Below, in pieces: positions 648 through 21,830 of a stretch of 24,291 nucleotides of DNA. The DNA is from a virus, in the IMG/VR virus record IMGVR_UViG_3300009184_000210, positions 1 through 24,291 of that record; one strand, given 5' to 3'. Below the pieces are notes generated by a model. The model was not told the origin of the DNA and ran no database searches. It saw nothing but the letters and a program-made list of their open reading frames with translations. How positions within the stretch are numbered: the first letter of the stretch is position 1; every line of letters starts with the position of its first letter. The translations under genes were made by a program, and so were the position numbers.

Positions 648-1156
648 TCTTTCAAAGAGACTGCGGCTTTTTTTGCTTTTGGTTCTTTCTTGAGGACTGG
701 GATAATATCCACGACAGTTTTTGGTTTAGCAGGAGGAAGAATATTTGGAAATGCTTCTCTTACTAAATCTTCTGTTAGTGTTTTATATCTAGTTTCAAGT
801 TTTTTGTCTTTTGCTAAACAAATTACTTCAGACTCTGTCCAATGGATACCTTCAAGCATTTGAACAAATAATTGTTCTTTCTTAATTTTAGATAAGTTAA
901 TATTTGGTTGTAGCCAAATATACATACGTCTAAATTCAGCATACAAGTTTGTTTCCGAATATCCAATTGGAATTTTCTCATCTTTCTTGAATGGAGGTTC
1001 TCCCTCGGGCAAATCTAACTTAACATCTGGGTTAAAATTGATTTGTAACATACCTTCAAGTTGTGGACTATGGTATGATCTTAAAACTGCAATTTTTTTG
1101 TCTTTGCCGTTTGTTTTTTCGATTTCCTCGAAAATTTGTGGTATAGTTGTTCGCAT
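644..1156 (-). CDS. Conserved T4-like phage protein (DUF6433-like)
   Basis: The 170-aa protein has the layout I associate with a family annotated DUF6433 in T4-like marine phages. It starts with a helical segment MRTTIPQIFEEIEKT, then a region PDVKLDLPEGEPPFKKDE at about residues 43-60. A helical middle carries LFVQMLEGIHW and IHWTESEVICLAKDKKLETRYK near residues 97-125, and the motif LVREAFPNIL ends the folded part. The tail after about residue 140 is a Lys/Pro/Ala linker and contains the A7 run at 668-674. It overlaps the RNase H start by one base (TAATG-type), so the two are co-translated. Function unknown; the pairing with RNase H suggests replication or repair, by inference. Confidence 0.85.
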   Translation of the reverse strand: MRTTIPQIFEEIEKTNGKDKKIAVLRSYHSPQLEGMLQINFNPDVKLDLPEGEPPFKKDEKIPIGYSETNLYAEFRRMYIWLQPNINLSKIKKEQLFVQMLEGIHWTESEVICLAKDKKLETRYKTLTEDLVREAFPNILPPAKPKTVVDIIPVLKKEPKAKKAAVSLKD

Positions 1157-2043
1157 CAGAACTCCTCAATTAATTCCAACATATTCTTCATTTTATGCTC
1201 AATGAAAAAGTTCAAAAGCATACTCTTGTTTTTATCAGGCTGACCTGTATAATTATTTATAATGGAATTTTTAATCTCTTCTGGGATGCATGTAAAATCT
1301 ACTAATTTACGATTGCGTTCAAAACGAGTTTTAAATTCATCATCTTGTGGCATGGATGTCGCATCTTTATACCAAGCTTCTAGTTTTTTAGTTGTAATAG
1401 GCTTTTGCCGCTCGCCTGCAACAATACTATCATCTGCAGACAACACATTAGGGACACCGTCACCTTTATCACCTTTAATAGTATGTTCAAAGATATACTG
1501 TTTAGGTGACATCTCCGGTTTAACATATTTCTTTTGTACAGGGGAAAATTGTTTGACATTCTTAAACTTTTGAAGTTGAATAAAGTCATGATCGCCAGAA
1601 ACAATTAAAAACGGTTTAGGATCATCTTCAAATACTCCGCCACCGGCAAAGTCATTCGTTTGAGACCACTCTGCTAATACTGCAATAACGTCATCTGCTT
1701 CTGCACCATCGACGTTAACAACCTTGTAAGGGAAAAACTTATCAATCTCATTACGAATAAGATCAAGAGCTTCAAAGATTGTTTTCCAATCTAGACCAGA
1801 ATCCTCACGAGCTTTTTTGCGGCCAGCTTTGTAATATTGGAATTCTTGTCTCCTCCAATAATTTCTATTGTCTACGGCAATAACCAGTTGCCCATATTCT
1901 TTTCCGAATTTTTGTTTGTAACCTCGAATTGAATTTAAAATCATGTGACGCAATAGTGGTACTTGAATTTCAATATCTTTTCTACCGCCAATTTCTGCCA
2001 TCAAATTTGAAATAGCCGTTTGGCTGTAATCAACAACAATCAT
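1156..2043 (-). CDS. rnh: RNase H-type 5'-3' exonuclease (FEN family, T4 Rnh-like)
   Basis: This 295-aa protein (T4 Rnh is 305 aa) has the flap-endonuclease metal-site pattern. Asp5 lies in IVVDYSQ, Asp58 in AVDNRN, then the helical arch/basic segment YYKAGRKKAR (70-79), DGAEADDVI (112-120), SGDHDFIQL (149-157) and GDKGDGVPN (191-199, the helix-hairpin-helix/metal region). In T4 this enzyme removes RNA primers and short DNA from Okazaki fragments at the fork. Here it likely does the same in the host cytoplasm. It is followed without a gap by the DUF6433-like gene. A TATAAATA octamer occurs inside it at 1254-1261 but is probably coincidental. Confidence 0.93.
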   Translation of the reverse strand: MIVVDYSQTAISNLMAEIGGRKDIEIQVPLLRHMILNSIRGYKQKFGKEYGQLVIAVDNRNYWRRQEFQYYKAGRKKAREDSGLDWKTIFEALDLIRNEIDKFFPYKVVNVDGAEADDVIAVLAEWSQTNDFAGGGVFEDDPKPFLIVSGDHDFIQLQKFKNVKQFSPVQKKYVKPEMSPKQYIFEHTIKGDKGDGVPNVLSADDSIVAGERQKPITTKKLEAWYKDATSMPQDDEFKTRFERNRKLVDFTCIPEEIKNSIINNYTGQPDKNKSMLLNFFIEHKMKNMLELIEEF

Positions 2044-6316: not shown

Positions 6317-6514
6317 GAGGTTATCCAATTTTTTTGGTTTATTTTCAGCAATCCATTCATCTTCCCCGGCAAATGTGGGAGATTTGGATAACCAATATTG
6401 ACATTCCCATAAAGTTTGCATGATTTGTTGTTTGTAATGGAAAGCAGTGTATCCATCATTATACGGAGACGTCATTTCGTGACCGTATTTCTCAATATCA
6501 TAGGTTGTACTCAT
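6305..6514 (-). CDS. Hypothetical small protein
   Basis: This 69-aa protein starts MSTTYDIEKYGHEMTSPYND and has a helical middle rich in aromatic residues (AFHYKQQIMQTLWECQYWLS) and a polar tail. There is no recognisable family. The ATG overlaps the stop of the Cys-motif gene upstream (ATGA), so the pair are co-translated. The weak promoter at 6287 lies just past its stop, separating it from the next transcript. Confidence 0.75.
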   Translation of the reverse strand: MSTTYDIEKYGHEMTSPYNDGYTAFHYKQQIMQTLWECQYWLSKSPTFAGEDEWIAENKPKKLDNLSTI

Positions 6515-11798: not shown

Positions 11799-11827
11799 AT
11801 TATAGCACACTCTGATCGTTTGGACAA
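11799..11827 (-). promoter_or_regulatory. sigma-70 promoter with variant -35 TTGTCC
   Basis: Minus strand: TTGTCC (11827-11822), 17-bp spacer ending TGTGC, TATAAT (11804-11799). One of two members of the promoter family whose -35 is TTGTCC (the other at 14405-14433). Confidence 0.7.
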
Positions 11828-11830
11828 GCA

Positions 11831-11854
11831 ATAACCCGTTGGTTTGCTGGGGTA
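11831..11854. terminator. CCC/GGG hairpin of divergent promoter module
   Basis: ATAACCC and GGGGTAC arms (one mismatch) lie between the minus-strand promoter at 11799-11827 and the plus-strand promoter at 11865-11893. The same arrangement occurs at 14436-14462 and, with a related hairpin, at 16288-16310. Confidence 0.4.
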
Positions 11855-11864
11855 CTTTGTGAGG

Positions 11865-11893
11865 TTGACAGAACTTTTGAATGATGTTAAAAT
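11865..11893 (+). promoter_or_regulatory. Plus-strand sigma-70 promoter into the origin-like region
   Basis: TTGACA (11865-11870), 17-bp spacer GAACTTTTGAATGATGT, TAAAAT (11888-11893). No plus-strand gene follows. Transcription would pass the AT-rich tract and the TTATCCAC array, then run antisense into the 12082-12453 gene. Confidence 0.78.
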
Positions 11894-12081
11894 AATAGAT
11901 TGCTTTAATATTATGATCAATCTGTTTAATATAAAGTATTATCTGATCTATTCCATGCTTTAATAGCTATATATAGCATTTCCAAATAGGCTCGATTATT
12001 CTCCGAGTTATCCACCGGTTATCCACTGATTATCTTCGATTATCCACTAAAAATACGCATCGTAATGTGGTTTCTACACGG
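11894..12081. other. Candidate replication origin / regulatory locus
   Basis: This non-coding segment holds an AT-rich stretch, an inverted repeat AGATTG...CAATCT (11897-11923), the 12-bp palindrome GCTATATATAGC (11966-11977) and a five-unit array at 11996-12048. It is preceded by a plus-strand promoter. This combination is typical of origins using DnaA- or iteron-type initiators; the call is inference. Confidence 0.5.
11996..12048. repeat. TTATCCAC (DnaA-box-like) array, 10-12 bp spacing
   Basis: TTATTCTCC (11996), TTATCCACC (12008), TTATCCACT (12019), TTATCTTCG (12030) and TTATCCACT (12040) follow one another at 12, 11, 11 and 10 bp, about one helical turn. Three match 8 of 9 positions of the DnaA box TTATCCACA. 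All point the same way. Confidence 0.8.
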
Positions 12082-14075: not shown

Positions 14076-14098
14076 TAACCCTTTGGAAACTAGGGTTA
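14076..14098. terminator. 7-bp perfect CCC/GGG hairpin
   Basis: TAACCCT (14076-14082) pairs perfectly with AGGGTTA (14092-14098), 9-nt loop. It overlaps the stop codon of the GIY-YIG gene and abuts the next promoter, so it is well placed to terminate that gene's transcript. Confidence 0.55.
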
Positions 14099-14398
14099 CT
14101 GAGAGTTCAATGTTGGTGAGTACTCACCAATTAATTCACGTTCTAAAGCGTGAGCTGAAGCTTTGCCTCTGACGATCGCAAGTTCTTGTGCAACAAACGC
14201 TGAGACCCCGTAGGACCTGATAGCGTCGCATAACATCCAGGACTTGTGCTCAGTCAATGCCCGTCTAATATGCTTTTGTACGCGGATTTTGAGGTCCCGT
14301 TTGCGAAAACCCTGAGTGATTCCGATGTAGAAATCTCCGGTTGCTACGTTTTGTAGCATGTAAACGATATGGCGTCTGTCTGATCTTTTCTTTCTCAT
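14096..14398 (-). CDS. GIY-YIG nuclease domain protein
   Basis: The 100-aa protein is essentially one GIY-YIG domain. HIVYMLQN (10-17) takes the place of GIY, FYIGIT (23-28) contains the YIG, KHIRRAL (42-48) supplies the conserved basic residues, and the Glu of ALERELIGEY (about 84-93) with the final Asn complete the pattern. The enzymes hydrolyse one DNA strand using a metal; phage examples include homing nucleases and host-genome degrading nucleases. No DNA-binding domain follows, so it may not be a classic homing enzyme. Its ATG is exactly at the predicted +1 of the promoter at 14405-14433, with no other Met before the YML motif. Confidence 0.85.
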   Translation of the reverse strand: MRKKRSDRRHIVYMLQNVATGDFYIGITQGFRKRDLKIRVQKHIRRALTEHKSWMLCDAIRSYGVSAFVAQELAIVRGKASAHALERELIGEYSPTLNSQ

Positions 14399-14404
14399 GC
14401 CCTA

Positions 14405-14433
14405 ATTATAGCACATTTTGACCAAAAGGACAA
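14405..14433 (-). promoter_or_regulatory. sigma-70 promoter with variant -35 TTGTCC
   Basis: Minus strand: TTGTCC (14433-14428), 17-bp spacer, TATAAT (14410-14405). Predicted +1 coincides with the ATG of the GIY-YIG gene. Confidence 0.7.
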
Positions 14434-14435
14434 GC

Positions 14436-14462
14436 AATAACCCTTCAGACTTCTGGGGTATT
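14436..14462. terminator. CCC/GGG hairpin between divergent promoters
   Basis: AATAACCC (14436-14443) and GGGGTATT (14455-14462) with one mismatch. Second copy of the divergent module; its right arm touches the plus-strand -35. Confidence 0.45.
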
Positions 14463-14489
14463 GACAAAACACTTGAAAGATGTTAAAAT
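14461..14489 (+). promoter_or_regulatory. Antisense sigma-70 promoter
   Basis: TTGACA (14461-14466), spacer AAACACTTGAAAGATGT, TAAAAT (14484-14489). It points into the 3' end of the minus-strand gene 14493-14762; no plus-strand gene follows. Confidence 0.75.
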
Positions 14490-16255: not shown

Positions 16256-16284
16256 ATTATAGCACGATTTGGACAACCTGTCAA
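16256..16284 (-). promoter_or_regulatory. sigma-70 promoter, spacer family
   Basis: Minus strand: TTGACA (16284-16279), 17-bp spacer GGTTGTCCAAATCGTGC, TATAAT (16261-16256). Drives 16231 onward. Confidence 0.88.
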
Positions 16285-16287
16285 GCA

Positions 16288-16310
16288 TACCCTAGCAACT
16301 TGTATGGGTA
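16288..16310. terminator. CCC/GGG hairpin between divergent promoters
   Basis: TACCC (16288-16292) and GGGTA (16306-16310) arms flank a 13-nt loop between the minus-strand promoter and the plus-strand promoter. Third copy of the divergent module. Confidence 0.4.
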
Positions 16311-16321
16311 CTATAAAGTGC

Positions 16322-16350
16322 TTGACAGAACACTTGAACGATGTTATAAT
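16322..16350 (+). promoter_or_regulatory. Antisense sigma-70 promoter, consensus
   Basis: TTGACA (16322-16327), 17-bp spacer GAACACTTGAACGATGT, TATAAT (16345-16350). It is perfect consensus and points into the 3' end of the minus-strand gene 16360-16641. Confidence 0.82.
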
Positions 16351-17106: not shown

Positions 17107-18015
17107 TCAAGCACCTTGGGTGAGCACGTACTTAGCCAATTGTTTCCAATCGCCACCTTCTGCACGAATCTTTGTTGTTGAGATTAACGAACGCAAACTC
17201 AAGTTCTCAATGCTGTTGCCAATTGTCTTGATGAATGCAATTGCGTCAGCTTTATGTGTTGTCGCAAACTCTGGCATAAACTCTGAATCATCAATCAATA
17301 CTTCCATGCGCTCAATCTTTTGAGCTTGTGTCATGCTCAAGTCAACGCACATTGCACGACTCTTAACAGCTTGGTCTACACGATCAAGATCCATGTTGGA
17401 AATAAACACAATGCTACCTGTAAACTTGAAACTGCGGGGCAAGTCGTCATCTTTCATGTCCGCATTCCAGTTGATCCAGCGTTCGCCGTATGAGTCAAGC
17501 GCACCCTTGAGCAAGTTAAGAGCAACTGGGTCTTTGAGCACGCTATCGCAGTCGTCAAATACTAATACTTGACCGTTGCCTTCGAACAATGTGCGATACA
17601 GACCTTTAGCAGTACTGTAACCTTTTACAATGCGAAAACTCTTGTCAGAATTAATGCGAGCACCTTCTTCGAACTGTGCTAAGTCTGTGGTGTCAATCAA
17701 GTTCTGTGCCTTGAGTGATTTCAAAACAGTATGTGTCTTACCCAAGCCACCTTGGCCTGTGATAATTGCTGATGCAATAGTCTTTTTAGCAACCATTGTG
17801 ACCATTTGTGCAACAAAGTCAAAACGCTTGTTGATACCAAACTCGTCAACCTTGGGCTGGGTATTTACAGTACCGCTTACTGGTTCTACTTGCAAACCTA
17901 ATTTAGCAATCTGGTCGCGCACATATGATTCGTGACGTGATCTTGAGACCATTTTGCCATCAACAAAACCTTCGAAACGATTCTTTGCTTTGTTGAAAAT
18001 TACTTTTACACGCAT
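17107..18015 (-). CDS. AAA+ ATPase
   Basis: The 302-aa protein has an N-terminal region of about 60 residues of unknown function (VKVIFNKAKNRFEGFVDGK...). A P-loop domain follows: Walker A GQGGLGKTH at 87-95, Walker B VLVFDDCD at 150-157, sensor 1 in IVFISNMD near 202-209 and an Arg (SRAM, about 219-222) after it. A C-terminal helical part is ...NLSLRSLISTTKIRAEGGDW. This is the order of AAA+ ATPases that act on nucleoprotein or remodel complexes; a helicase loader or replication remodeller is one possibility. It has an AGGAG ribosome-binding site and lies behind the TTTGCACA control region. Length is complete. Confidence 0.87.
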   Translation of the reverse strand: MRVKVIFNKAKNRFEGFVDGKMVSRSRHESYVRDQIAKLGLQVEPVSGTVNTQPKVDEFGINKRFDFVAQMVTMVAKKTIASAIITGQGGLGKTHTVLKSLKAQNLIDTTDLAQFEEGARINSDKSFRIVKGYSTAKGLYRTLFEGNGQVLVFDDCDSVLKDPVALNLLKGALDSYGERWINWNADMKDDDLPRSFKFTGSIVFISNMDLDRVDQAVKSRAMCVDLSMTQAQKIERMEVLIDDSEFMPEFATTHKADAIAFIKTIGNSIENLSLRSLISTTKIRAEGGDWKQLAKYVLTQGA

Positions 18016-18140: not shown

Positions 18141-18169
18141 ATTATATGTGCAAATGCACATCTTGTCAA
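18141..18169 (-). promoter_or_regulatory. sigma-70 promoter with palindromic operator in spacer
   Basis: Minus strand: TTGACA (18169-18164), 17-bp spacer, TATAAT (18146-18141). The spacer consists almost entirely of the inverted repeat ATGTGCAAATGCACAT. Confidence 0.82.
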
Positions 18170-18212
18170 GCCTTTTCAGTCAAAAAGATTCGAATTTCTG
18201 TTGAAAAAGTGC

Positions 18213-18241
18213 TTGACAAGACATCAAAAAGAATATATAAT
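18213..18241 (+). promoter_or_regulatory. sigma-70 promoter of the plus-strand operon
   Basis: TTGACA (18213-18218), 17-bp spacer, TATAAT (18236-18241), perfect consensus. It starts the five-gene plus-strand operon and is divergent from the promoters at 18047 and 18141. Confidence 0.88.
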
Positions 18242-19529: not shown

Positions 19530-20654
19530 TTATTGTTGGTTGGCTATTGTAAATTTATATCCTGAAGAAACATTCAACCAATTAGTTAATGCACCAACCT
19601 GTGTCGGACTGTTTTTATCTATAGTATTACCTATACCCAAACCACCAGTGTCGTTTTTGCCCCAAGTCCATAAGGTACCGTCGGTTTTAATGGCTGCAGA
19701 ATGAAACTTGTTTGCTTTTATTTTTGACCAAGTAGTTAGTGCGCCGACTTGTACGGGACTAACAGTATCTGTATTATTACTTAATCCTAAATTACTATAA
19801 TAATTAAACCCCCATGACCATAAGGTACCGTCGGTTTTAATTGCGTGACCATAGCTTCTACCTAAACTTACCGATGCCCAAGTTGTCAGTGCCCCTATTT
19901 GTTTTGGACTTGAATAATTTGAGGACCCACCTAATCCTAATTGACCAACATTGTTTTTGCCCCATGCCCACATTGTACCATTAGTTTTAATAGCAGCAGA
20001 TTGCACCTCTAATGCAGATACAGATAACCAATTAGTTAATGACCCAACTTGTACTGGACTAGAATAACTGGAGGCATTATTTAAACCTAATATCCCATAA
20101 CTAGCACTGCCCCATGCCCATAAGGTTCCATCGGTTTTGGTGGCTATTGTATGCATGTACCCTGCGGCAACATCTAACCAGCTAGTTAATGCACCAACTT
20201 GTACGGGACTAGATCTATTTGCAGTGTCGCTCAAACCAAGACCGCCATAAGCATTATTTCCCCATGTCCACAAAGTACCATCAGTTTTAATTGCCAATGA
20301 TATATTTAGTGTCCCTGAAATACTTGACCAATTGGTTAGAGAACCAACTTGTACCGGGCTTGAATAACCTGTAGTATTACCTAAACCGAGGCACCCTCTC
20401 GTATTACGTCCCCATACCCACAGGGTACCATCGGTTTTAATTGATAAAGAATGTACTTGTCCGCCAGCAACTTTTGCCCAATTGGCCATGGCGCCAACTT
20501 GTTTTGGACTTGAATAATTTGTAGTATTACCTATCCCCATTTCGCCTGACGTATTAAGTCCCCAAGACCAAAGGTAATTTGCTGGGGGAATAGGAATATC
20601 CCAAGTCTGTACATTCATTCCGCCAAGAGCGAAGTTAACATTTGTAATTTGCAT
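19530..20654 (-). CDS. RCC1-repeat beta-propeller protein, probable virion surface protein
   Basis: The 374-aa protein is seven RCC1-type repeats of about 50 residues, each running ...LWxWGxNxxGxLGLGNTxxxSSPxQVGxLTxWxxVSxG...IKTDGT. This matches the seven blades of an RCC1 propeller. It is preceded by a short leader, MQITNVNFALGGMNVQTW, that parallels the next gene's start. The DNA carries matching repeats of about 150 bp, so recombination within the gene is possible. No catalytic motif is seen; such repeats in phages are thought to form adhesins or receptor-binding domains. An AATAAATA variant late promoter lies 27 nt upstream. Confidence 0.9.
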   Translation of the reverse strand: MQITNVNFALGGMNVQTWDIPIPPANYLWSWGLNTSGEMGIGNTTNYSSPKQVGAMANWAKVAGGQVHSLSIKTDGTLWVWGRNTRGCLGLGNTTGYSSPVQVGSLTNWSSISGTLNISLAIKTDGTLWTWGNNAYGGLGLSDTANRSSPVQVGALTSWLDVAAGYMHTIATKTDGTLWAWGSASYGILGLNNASSYSSPVQVGSLTNWLSVSALEVQSAAIKTNGTMWAWGKNNVGQLGLGGSSNYSSPKQIGALTTWASVSLGRSYGHAIKTDGTLWSWGFNYYSNLGLSNNTDTVSPVQVGALTTWSKIKANKFHSAAIKTDGTLWTWGKNDTGGLGIGNTIDKNSPTQVGALTNWLNVSSGYKFTIANQQ

Positions 20655-21428: not shown

Positions 21429-21830
21429 TTATGCCTTTAGATTCTTTATATGAGTTTTATGTACGCGGCATTGCACTTGGCCGTTGTAATAATCTTCTGT
21501 CTCTAAAACTCGTCTATCCATTTGTTCTCTTGCTTCCAAATAATTGCACAAACCTTTGTTTGGGCATATATGCAGTATCTCTCGTATAAACTTATCCGCA
21601 CCATGCGTTTCAACATCTTTCTTAACCTCATCAGATGAAGACCAATAATCTCTCCAATCTGACTCAACCTTTAATCTTTTCTTCTTACCCTTAACTACCT
21701 TTGTTCTGCGAAACCAAAACAACTTTTTACCTATATACTTGCGATTCGTGGCAGTATTGGTAATCAAGTACACATAACCATATGCTTCTTCTGGAACAGT
21801 TTCTAAAGGCTTTTCTTTATATAACCACAT
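21429..21830 (-). CDS. GIY-YIG-type nuclease
   Basis: The 133-aa protein has the GIY-YIG core. YGYVYLITNT (17-26) and KYIGKKLFWF (31-40) are followed by a basic loop, then DWRDYWSSSDEVKKD (58-72) and a C-terminal helix with NYLEAREQM (96-104), whose Glu is the expected metal ligand. This SSS-bearing, Trp-rich version is found in T4-like phages as a free-standing nuclease, often annotated endonuclease. It could be a homing enzyme or a DNA-processing nuclease. It is the first gene after the late promoter at 21853-21860, together with the LamG and RCC1 genes. Confidence 0.83.
   Translation of the reverse strand: MWLYKEKPLETVPEEAYGYVYLITNTATNRKYIGKKLFWFRRTKVVKGKKKRLKVESDWRDYWSSSDEVKKDVETHGADKFIREILHICPNKGLCNYLEAREQMDRRVLETEDYYNGQVQCRVHKTHIKNLKA

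Follow-up and report, generated by a model that had tools for sequence, protein, structure and literature searches.

The replication origins of bacteriophage T4 have no common sequence motif (PMC3016281). The layout of oriF (ori-uvsY) and oriG (ori-34) is a promoter joined to an AT-rich unwinding element, and oriE has an early promoter together with 12-nt direct repeats, the role of which is undefined (PMC3016281). The primer RNA of oriE is complementary to the gene 5 transcript (note in the T4 record). Here we describe the region 11799–12048 of a sequence record of 24.3 kb that comes from an uncultured T4-like phage (IMG/VR record IMGVR_UViG_3300009184_000210; its full length of 24,291 nucleotides is called the window below). 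Almost all genes of the window are located on the − strand. Features of the oriF/oriG type and of the oriE type are combined in this region at the sequence level. A T4-type, transcription-primed replication origin with lineage-specific iterons is therefore the best explanation of the locus, and we give this reading an even chance of being correct.

Comparison of the locus with described origins

As at oriF and oriG, a promoter is followed within approximately 100 bp by a candidate unwinding element, an arrangement that was also found in the related contigs L123 and G018, and the genome encodes a T4-type RNase H. The locus differs from oriF and oriG in its promoter, which is early-type with the consensus −35 sequence TTGACA and not a MotA middle promoter, in having direct repeats and a 10-bp conserved core in addition, and in its location, at which neither the transcribed strand nor the skew changes. 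With oriE it shares evenly spaced direct repeats of approximately 12 nt, an early-type promoter and a candidate primer RNA that would oppose the gene-strand transcript. An original prediction, made from the sequence of the window, had called iterons unusual in a T4-like phage, which in view of oriE was overstated. Unlike the repeats found at oriE, which fall inside gene 5, the array of the window is intergenic; no relative of repEA or repEB was identified here, no sequence is shared, and the proximity to a switch of coding strand and skew that marks oriE was not seen. Such a switch is also absent at T4 oriA and oriC (PMC3016281). The direct repeats by oriE (L479 1427–1558, corresponding to T4 79426–79557) have a period of 24/48 nt and are located within gene 5; they may therefore be repeats of the gp5 coding sequence and not iterons.

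Escherichia coli oriC and P1 oriR-type replicons resemble the locus in having DnaA-box-like direct repeats next to an AT-rich tract with GATC sites. In contrast to these replicons, the boxes of the window are imperfect and missing in distant relatives, GATC sites are few and the replication genes are those of a lytic T4-like phage.

A single-copy core is conserved in distant relatives

A search with the RNase H gave 80 loci with 71–100% identity. Comparison of the intergenic block containing the array with larger contigs yielded short exact matches, which share the core AGGCTCGATT and lie in the same intergenic place. Each contig has a single copy of the core, even those of 222 and 190 kb, and a phrog_1250 gene is found nearby. 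In most of the T4-like relatives it is located between genes and beside an array with a period of 10–13 bp, whose repeat sequence is lineage-specific. Such arrays were present at most 200 bp from the core in seven of the eight contigs tested, compared with a background of approximately 0.1 per kb measured with the same permissive settings. The period is 12 in G026, G019 and G034; units of the form CAACTCTN5 are found in G026 and G034, and the G026 array is one 12-nt unit longer than that of G019. No array was detectable in G024, and the sequence of G032 stops just past the core. To the right of the core, G018 and the more distant clade C have other repeats instead of DnaA-box-like ones.

Most of the 39 matches obtained in one search with a core pattern were unrelated to the locus, and a match of L146 to a longer pattern was a chance hit within coding sequence. 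The exact sequence TAGGCTCGATT is absent from T4, Melnitz-3, S-WAM1, DLP6, S-SZBM1 and S-CAM1. Queries with the 5-kb centre of the window and with the 42-bp core region revealed no DNA similarity to known phage genomes. In L447, another viral contig, AGGCTCGATT forms the left arm of a terminator-like hairpin at 6319–6335 (ATCGAGCC, then a T run); a second arm with a T run of this kind was not found in the window.

An early promoter is directed into the segment of lowest duplex stability

Nearest-neighbour duplex stability was computed along each contig for 60-bp segments. The AT-rich tract that had been predicted upstream of the array turned out to be the least stable segment of the whole window. 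In G002, G003, G005, G006 and G018, as in the window, the contig-wide minimum lies approximately 40–140 bp left of the core. G003, G005 and G006 belong to one lineage, so that four lineages are represented, in which 24, 23, 82 and 55 kb were searched.

A window-wide scan revealed a family of strong early-type promoters of the form TTGACA-N17-TATAAT with TG before the −10 box. The + promoter at 11865 runs opposite to the surrounding genes, and no other window promoter having TG and at least 11 of 12 consensus matches is followed by DNA of such low stability. The same applies to the corresponding + promoter among the strong promoters of the contig in L123 and G018. A counter-strand early promoter directed into the tract was detected in all four lineages, and 11–12 of 12 consensus matches also occur in the L123, L126 and G018 lineages. 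A − strand partner left of the element is likewise present in L123, G018, G024, G034, L472, L476 and G032. The strong promoter towards the array was thus found as predicted, but it is not specific to the array, because it is one of four + promoters that each face a − promoter (pairs 11827/11865, 14433/14461, 16284/16322 and 18169/18213), and none of the three other divergent pairs has an array. Within the four promoter-pair regions (11799–11893, 14405–14489, 16256–16350 and 18141–18241), at least two spacers can form a short hairpin of the TACCCC...GGGTTA type, and similar repeats near the contig ends of several relatives may explain assembly breaks there. Three of the four + promoters oppose genes; the one at 18213 heads the few + strand open reading frames (ORFs) of the window.

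Folding of the region gave no structure better than shuffles on either strand (z-scores 0.72 and 0.54) and there was no Rfam match, which favours a function at the DNA level rather than a structured RNA.

The repeat array resembles DnaA boxes in the nearest lineages

Five head-to-tail, TTAT-headed units start at 11996, 12008, 12019, 12030 and 12040, exactly reproducing the predicted positions. The steps between them are 12, 11, 11 and 10 bp (mean 11.0); the claim that the units face one side of the helix therefore holds for their 10–12-bp spacing, but the array is only approximately and not exactly in helical phase. Three of the five units match the DnaA box TTATCCACA at eight of nine bases, as predicted, with the reservation that this consensus may not be the box of the host. 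A perfect box does not occur in the window array, the final base being C or T in all three near-matches. When the window was shuffled 1000 times with its dinucleotides preserved, at least three same-strand TTATCCACA matches with at most one mismatch within 60 bp arose in only 2 of the shuffles. Among repeats with a period of 10–13 and a score of at least 60, the array is unique in the window (period 11, five copies, score 68). The sequence TTATCCAC, allowing one mismatch, is not enriched window-wide (29 found compared with 24.1 expected), so clustering and not number is the signal. Pairs of TTATNCACH within 60 bp were restricted to this locus, in the window, G001 and G002, when 28 contigs were scanned; on the contigs examined the repeats were not scattered through the genome.

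A search with the gene adjacent to the locus returned nine contigs, in five of which the array region was recognisable. L122 is almost identical to the window. The L123 block is 87–91% identical to that of the window and has two perfect TTATCCACA boxes, while L124, L126 and L127 form one lineage with 74–77% identity and carry TTATACACA and TTATCCCCC. The former fits the degenerate DnaA box TTATNCACA. The block is intergenic and of matching orientation in these three close lineages, and the array was not absent from the close relatives examined. With respect to the DnaA-box cluster, the lineages range from matches of eight of nine bases in the window and a perfect box twice in L123 to one variant in L126 and none beside the core in G018 and clade C. 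Units of this type are limited to the nearest lineages, and unrelated repeats replace them further out.

The word ATAGGCTCGATT is kept among close relatives in addition to AAGTATTATCTGATC, which alone is too common to mark the locus. The predicted 12-bp palindrome exists, but it is broken in relatives (GCTTTATATAGC, GCATTAAATAGC) and was rejected as a functional site. A CsrA/RsmA-type sponge on the − strand, formed by GTGGATAA repeats, was dropped as an explanation of the array because one unit of L126, TTATACACA, has no GGA on that strand. In the L126 lineage an ORF containing NUMOD3, a homing endonuclease motif, lies between the block and the flanking gene (L264 554–907, G005).

Features of the locus and neighbouring genes

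Table 1. Features of the candidate origin locus and selected genes of the window.
Feature	Position	Strand	Remarks
T4-type RNase H	1156..2043	−	Pfam RNaseH_C, 8e-15; in T4 this enzyme presumably processes the R-loops of origins
Early-type (sigma-70) promoter TTGTCC-N17-TATAAT	11799..11827	−	Leftward; divergent partner of the + promoter
Early-type promoter TTGACA-N17-TAAAAT	11865..11893	+	TG before −10; reads into AT-rich tract; candidate primer-RNA promoter
Candidate DNA unwinding element	11884..11943		Stability minimum of the window (60-bp segment, rank 1), GC 0.17; overlaps −10 box and extends downstream
Conserved word AAGTATTATCTGATC	11934..11948	+	Contains GATC; identical in L123, L124, L126 and L127
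12-bp palindrome GCTATATATAGC	11966..11977		Not conserved, probably incidental
Conserved core AGGCTCGATT, as TATAGGCTCGATT or AAATAGGCTCGATT	11988..11997	+	Single copy per contig at a syntenic intergenic site, also in distant relatives
Five direct repeats of ~11 bp: TTATTCTCC, TTATCCACC, TTATCCACT, TTATCTTCG, TTATCCACT	11996..12048	+	Iteron-like / DnaA-box-like
Flanking gene, 123 aa	12082..12453	−	Function not assigned; syntenic marker adjoining the locus
phrog_1250, P-loop, AAA+-like ATPase	17107..18015	−	~5 kb from the element in the window

The phrog_1250 gene is located 0.5–2 kb from the element in seven relatives (G018, G019, G020, G024, G026, G032 and G034). Its family has matches in more than 1000 phage records, many of them T4-like. 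A structure model of low confidence (predicted local distance difference test, pLDDT, 62) matched AAA+ proteins only generically. The protein is a speculative candidate for an initiator or loader.

Other genes of the window encode a deaminase and the small subunit of ribonucleotide reductase; no tRNA, tmRNA or Rfam RNA was detected in it. Two ORFs resemble GIY-YIG endonucleases (14096–14398 and 21429–21830), the latter with a SegE-type match (Pfam 2e-37). The protein encoded at 19530–20654 contains repeated 'LWSWG...LGLGNT..SSPVQVGALT' units with an RCC1-like pattern and varies across lineages (compare L264 8232–9368).

Evaluation of the origin and of alternative explanations

In a transcription-primed origin, host RNA polymerase would transcribe from 11865 into the AT-rich tract and the nascent RNA would remain annealed as an R-loop. 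The T4-type RNase H of the phage would trim the R-loop RNA, whose 3′ end would then serve as primer for the leading strand, in the manner of T4 oriF/oriG. One or more initiator or accessory proteins, bound to the core and the repeats, would keep the opening stable, and in the lineages nearest to the window the repeats might have drifted to, or have been selected as, DnaA-box-like sequence. The original prediction of a candidate origin gained support from the conserved intergenic locus, the stability minimum, the early promoter and the repeats at the core; the part assigned to DnaA emerged weaker.

Several observations weigh against an origin. GC skew does not turn at the locus; the cumulative skew, proposed earlier as a check, was monotonic over the whole contigs G005, G018, G019 and G034, relatives of 190–222 kb included, and is uninformative as a test because nearly all genes are on one strand. 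A switch of the coding strand is also absent, with − strand genes on both sides. The best-known T4 origins use MotA middle promoters and not early ones, although oriE provides a T4 precedent for an early promoter. AT-richness is general in promoters and intergenic DNA, and the lineages sharing the stability minimum are not independent tests, because G003, G005 and G006 count as one. Immediately behind the + promoter at 18213 lies the second least stable segment of the window (18226), which may be another origin-like site or no more than a promoter rich in AT. Among close relatives the block is no better conserved than the third codon positions of the adjacent gene (91% compared with 92% for L123, 77% compared with 89% for the L126 lineage), so that constraint rests on the core and the architecture in distant relatives and not on identity within the near group. 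Finally, clade C keeps the core without a strong + early promoter and without an extreme unwinding tract, the DNA there being AT-rich and unremarkable. It has instead the late-type promoter TATAAATA, which lies on the same strand as the core and precedes it by 19–21 nt. TATAAATA is a true late promoter of these phages, since 12 of the 25 gene-strand sites in G034 are 23–60 nt upstream of large ORFs.

The late promoter of clade C is also in line with a locus for counter-strand transcription instead of an origin. Early promoters in the window group or late promoters in clade C would then give rise to a non-coding antisense transcript by which the expression of the adjacent gene or of neighbouring genes is reduced, and the core would be a regulator site or the region of the transcript start. 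A + promoter of early or late type opposing the genes is found in nearly every lineage, and the three further divergent pairs of the window do without an array. However, the contig-wide stability minimum and the repeat arrays stay unexplained, and the RNA has neither structure above shuffles on either strand nor an Rfam match. Moreover, an origin, too, would be expected to show antisense transcription, because the oriE primer RNA is itself complementary to the transcript of gene 5. We regard antisense control as unlikely, though by no means negligible. It is improbable that the array has no dedicated function and that AT-rich intergenic DNA between a stop codon and a promoter merely accumulated slippage-prone repeats with neutral turnover, beside a short conserved late-regulatory element. 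The wholly different repeat sequences among lineages, the variable copy number (G026 compared with G019) and the lack of conservation of the palindrome and most flanks would agree with such turnover, but arrays with this period are found at the element in all but one of the contigs tested, far above background, and in four lineages the stability minimum falls at this position.

Quite improbable is an oriC-type origin driven by host DnaA, which would bind the TTATCCAC units, whereupon the AT-rich tract would be opened and the helicase loaded. The three one-mismatch 9-mers of the window, the two perfect boxes of L123 and TTATACACA of L126 argue for it, as do the confinement of the TTATNCACH pairs to this locus and the melting tract adjoining the boxes. 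Against this stand the imperfect boxes of the window, their replacement by other repeats beside the core in G018 and clade C, and the loading, in T4-type phages, of a helicase and primase of the phage's own. Because the repeats turn over by lineage, DnaA is disfavoured as a general initiator.

For the transcription-primed origin, the difference in repeat sequence among lineages suggests that the protein binding the core and the repeats is probably lineage-specific. Host DnaA is a possible binder in the window's own group, since the repeats there resemble DnaA boxes. In a hybrid origin, which we consider rather improbable, the early transcript would open the T4-type unwinding element and host DnaA on the phased boxes would help to load the replisome; if true, replication of the phage would be tied to the host's own initiator. 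A conserved, single-copy, sequence-defined locus with promoter, unwinding tract and repeats across a whole group of T4-like phages would give origin prediction a handle and would allow a direct test, by cross-lineage comparison, of what iterons do in T4-type replication.
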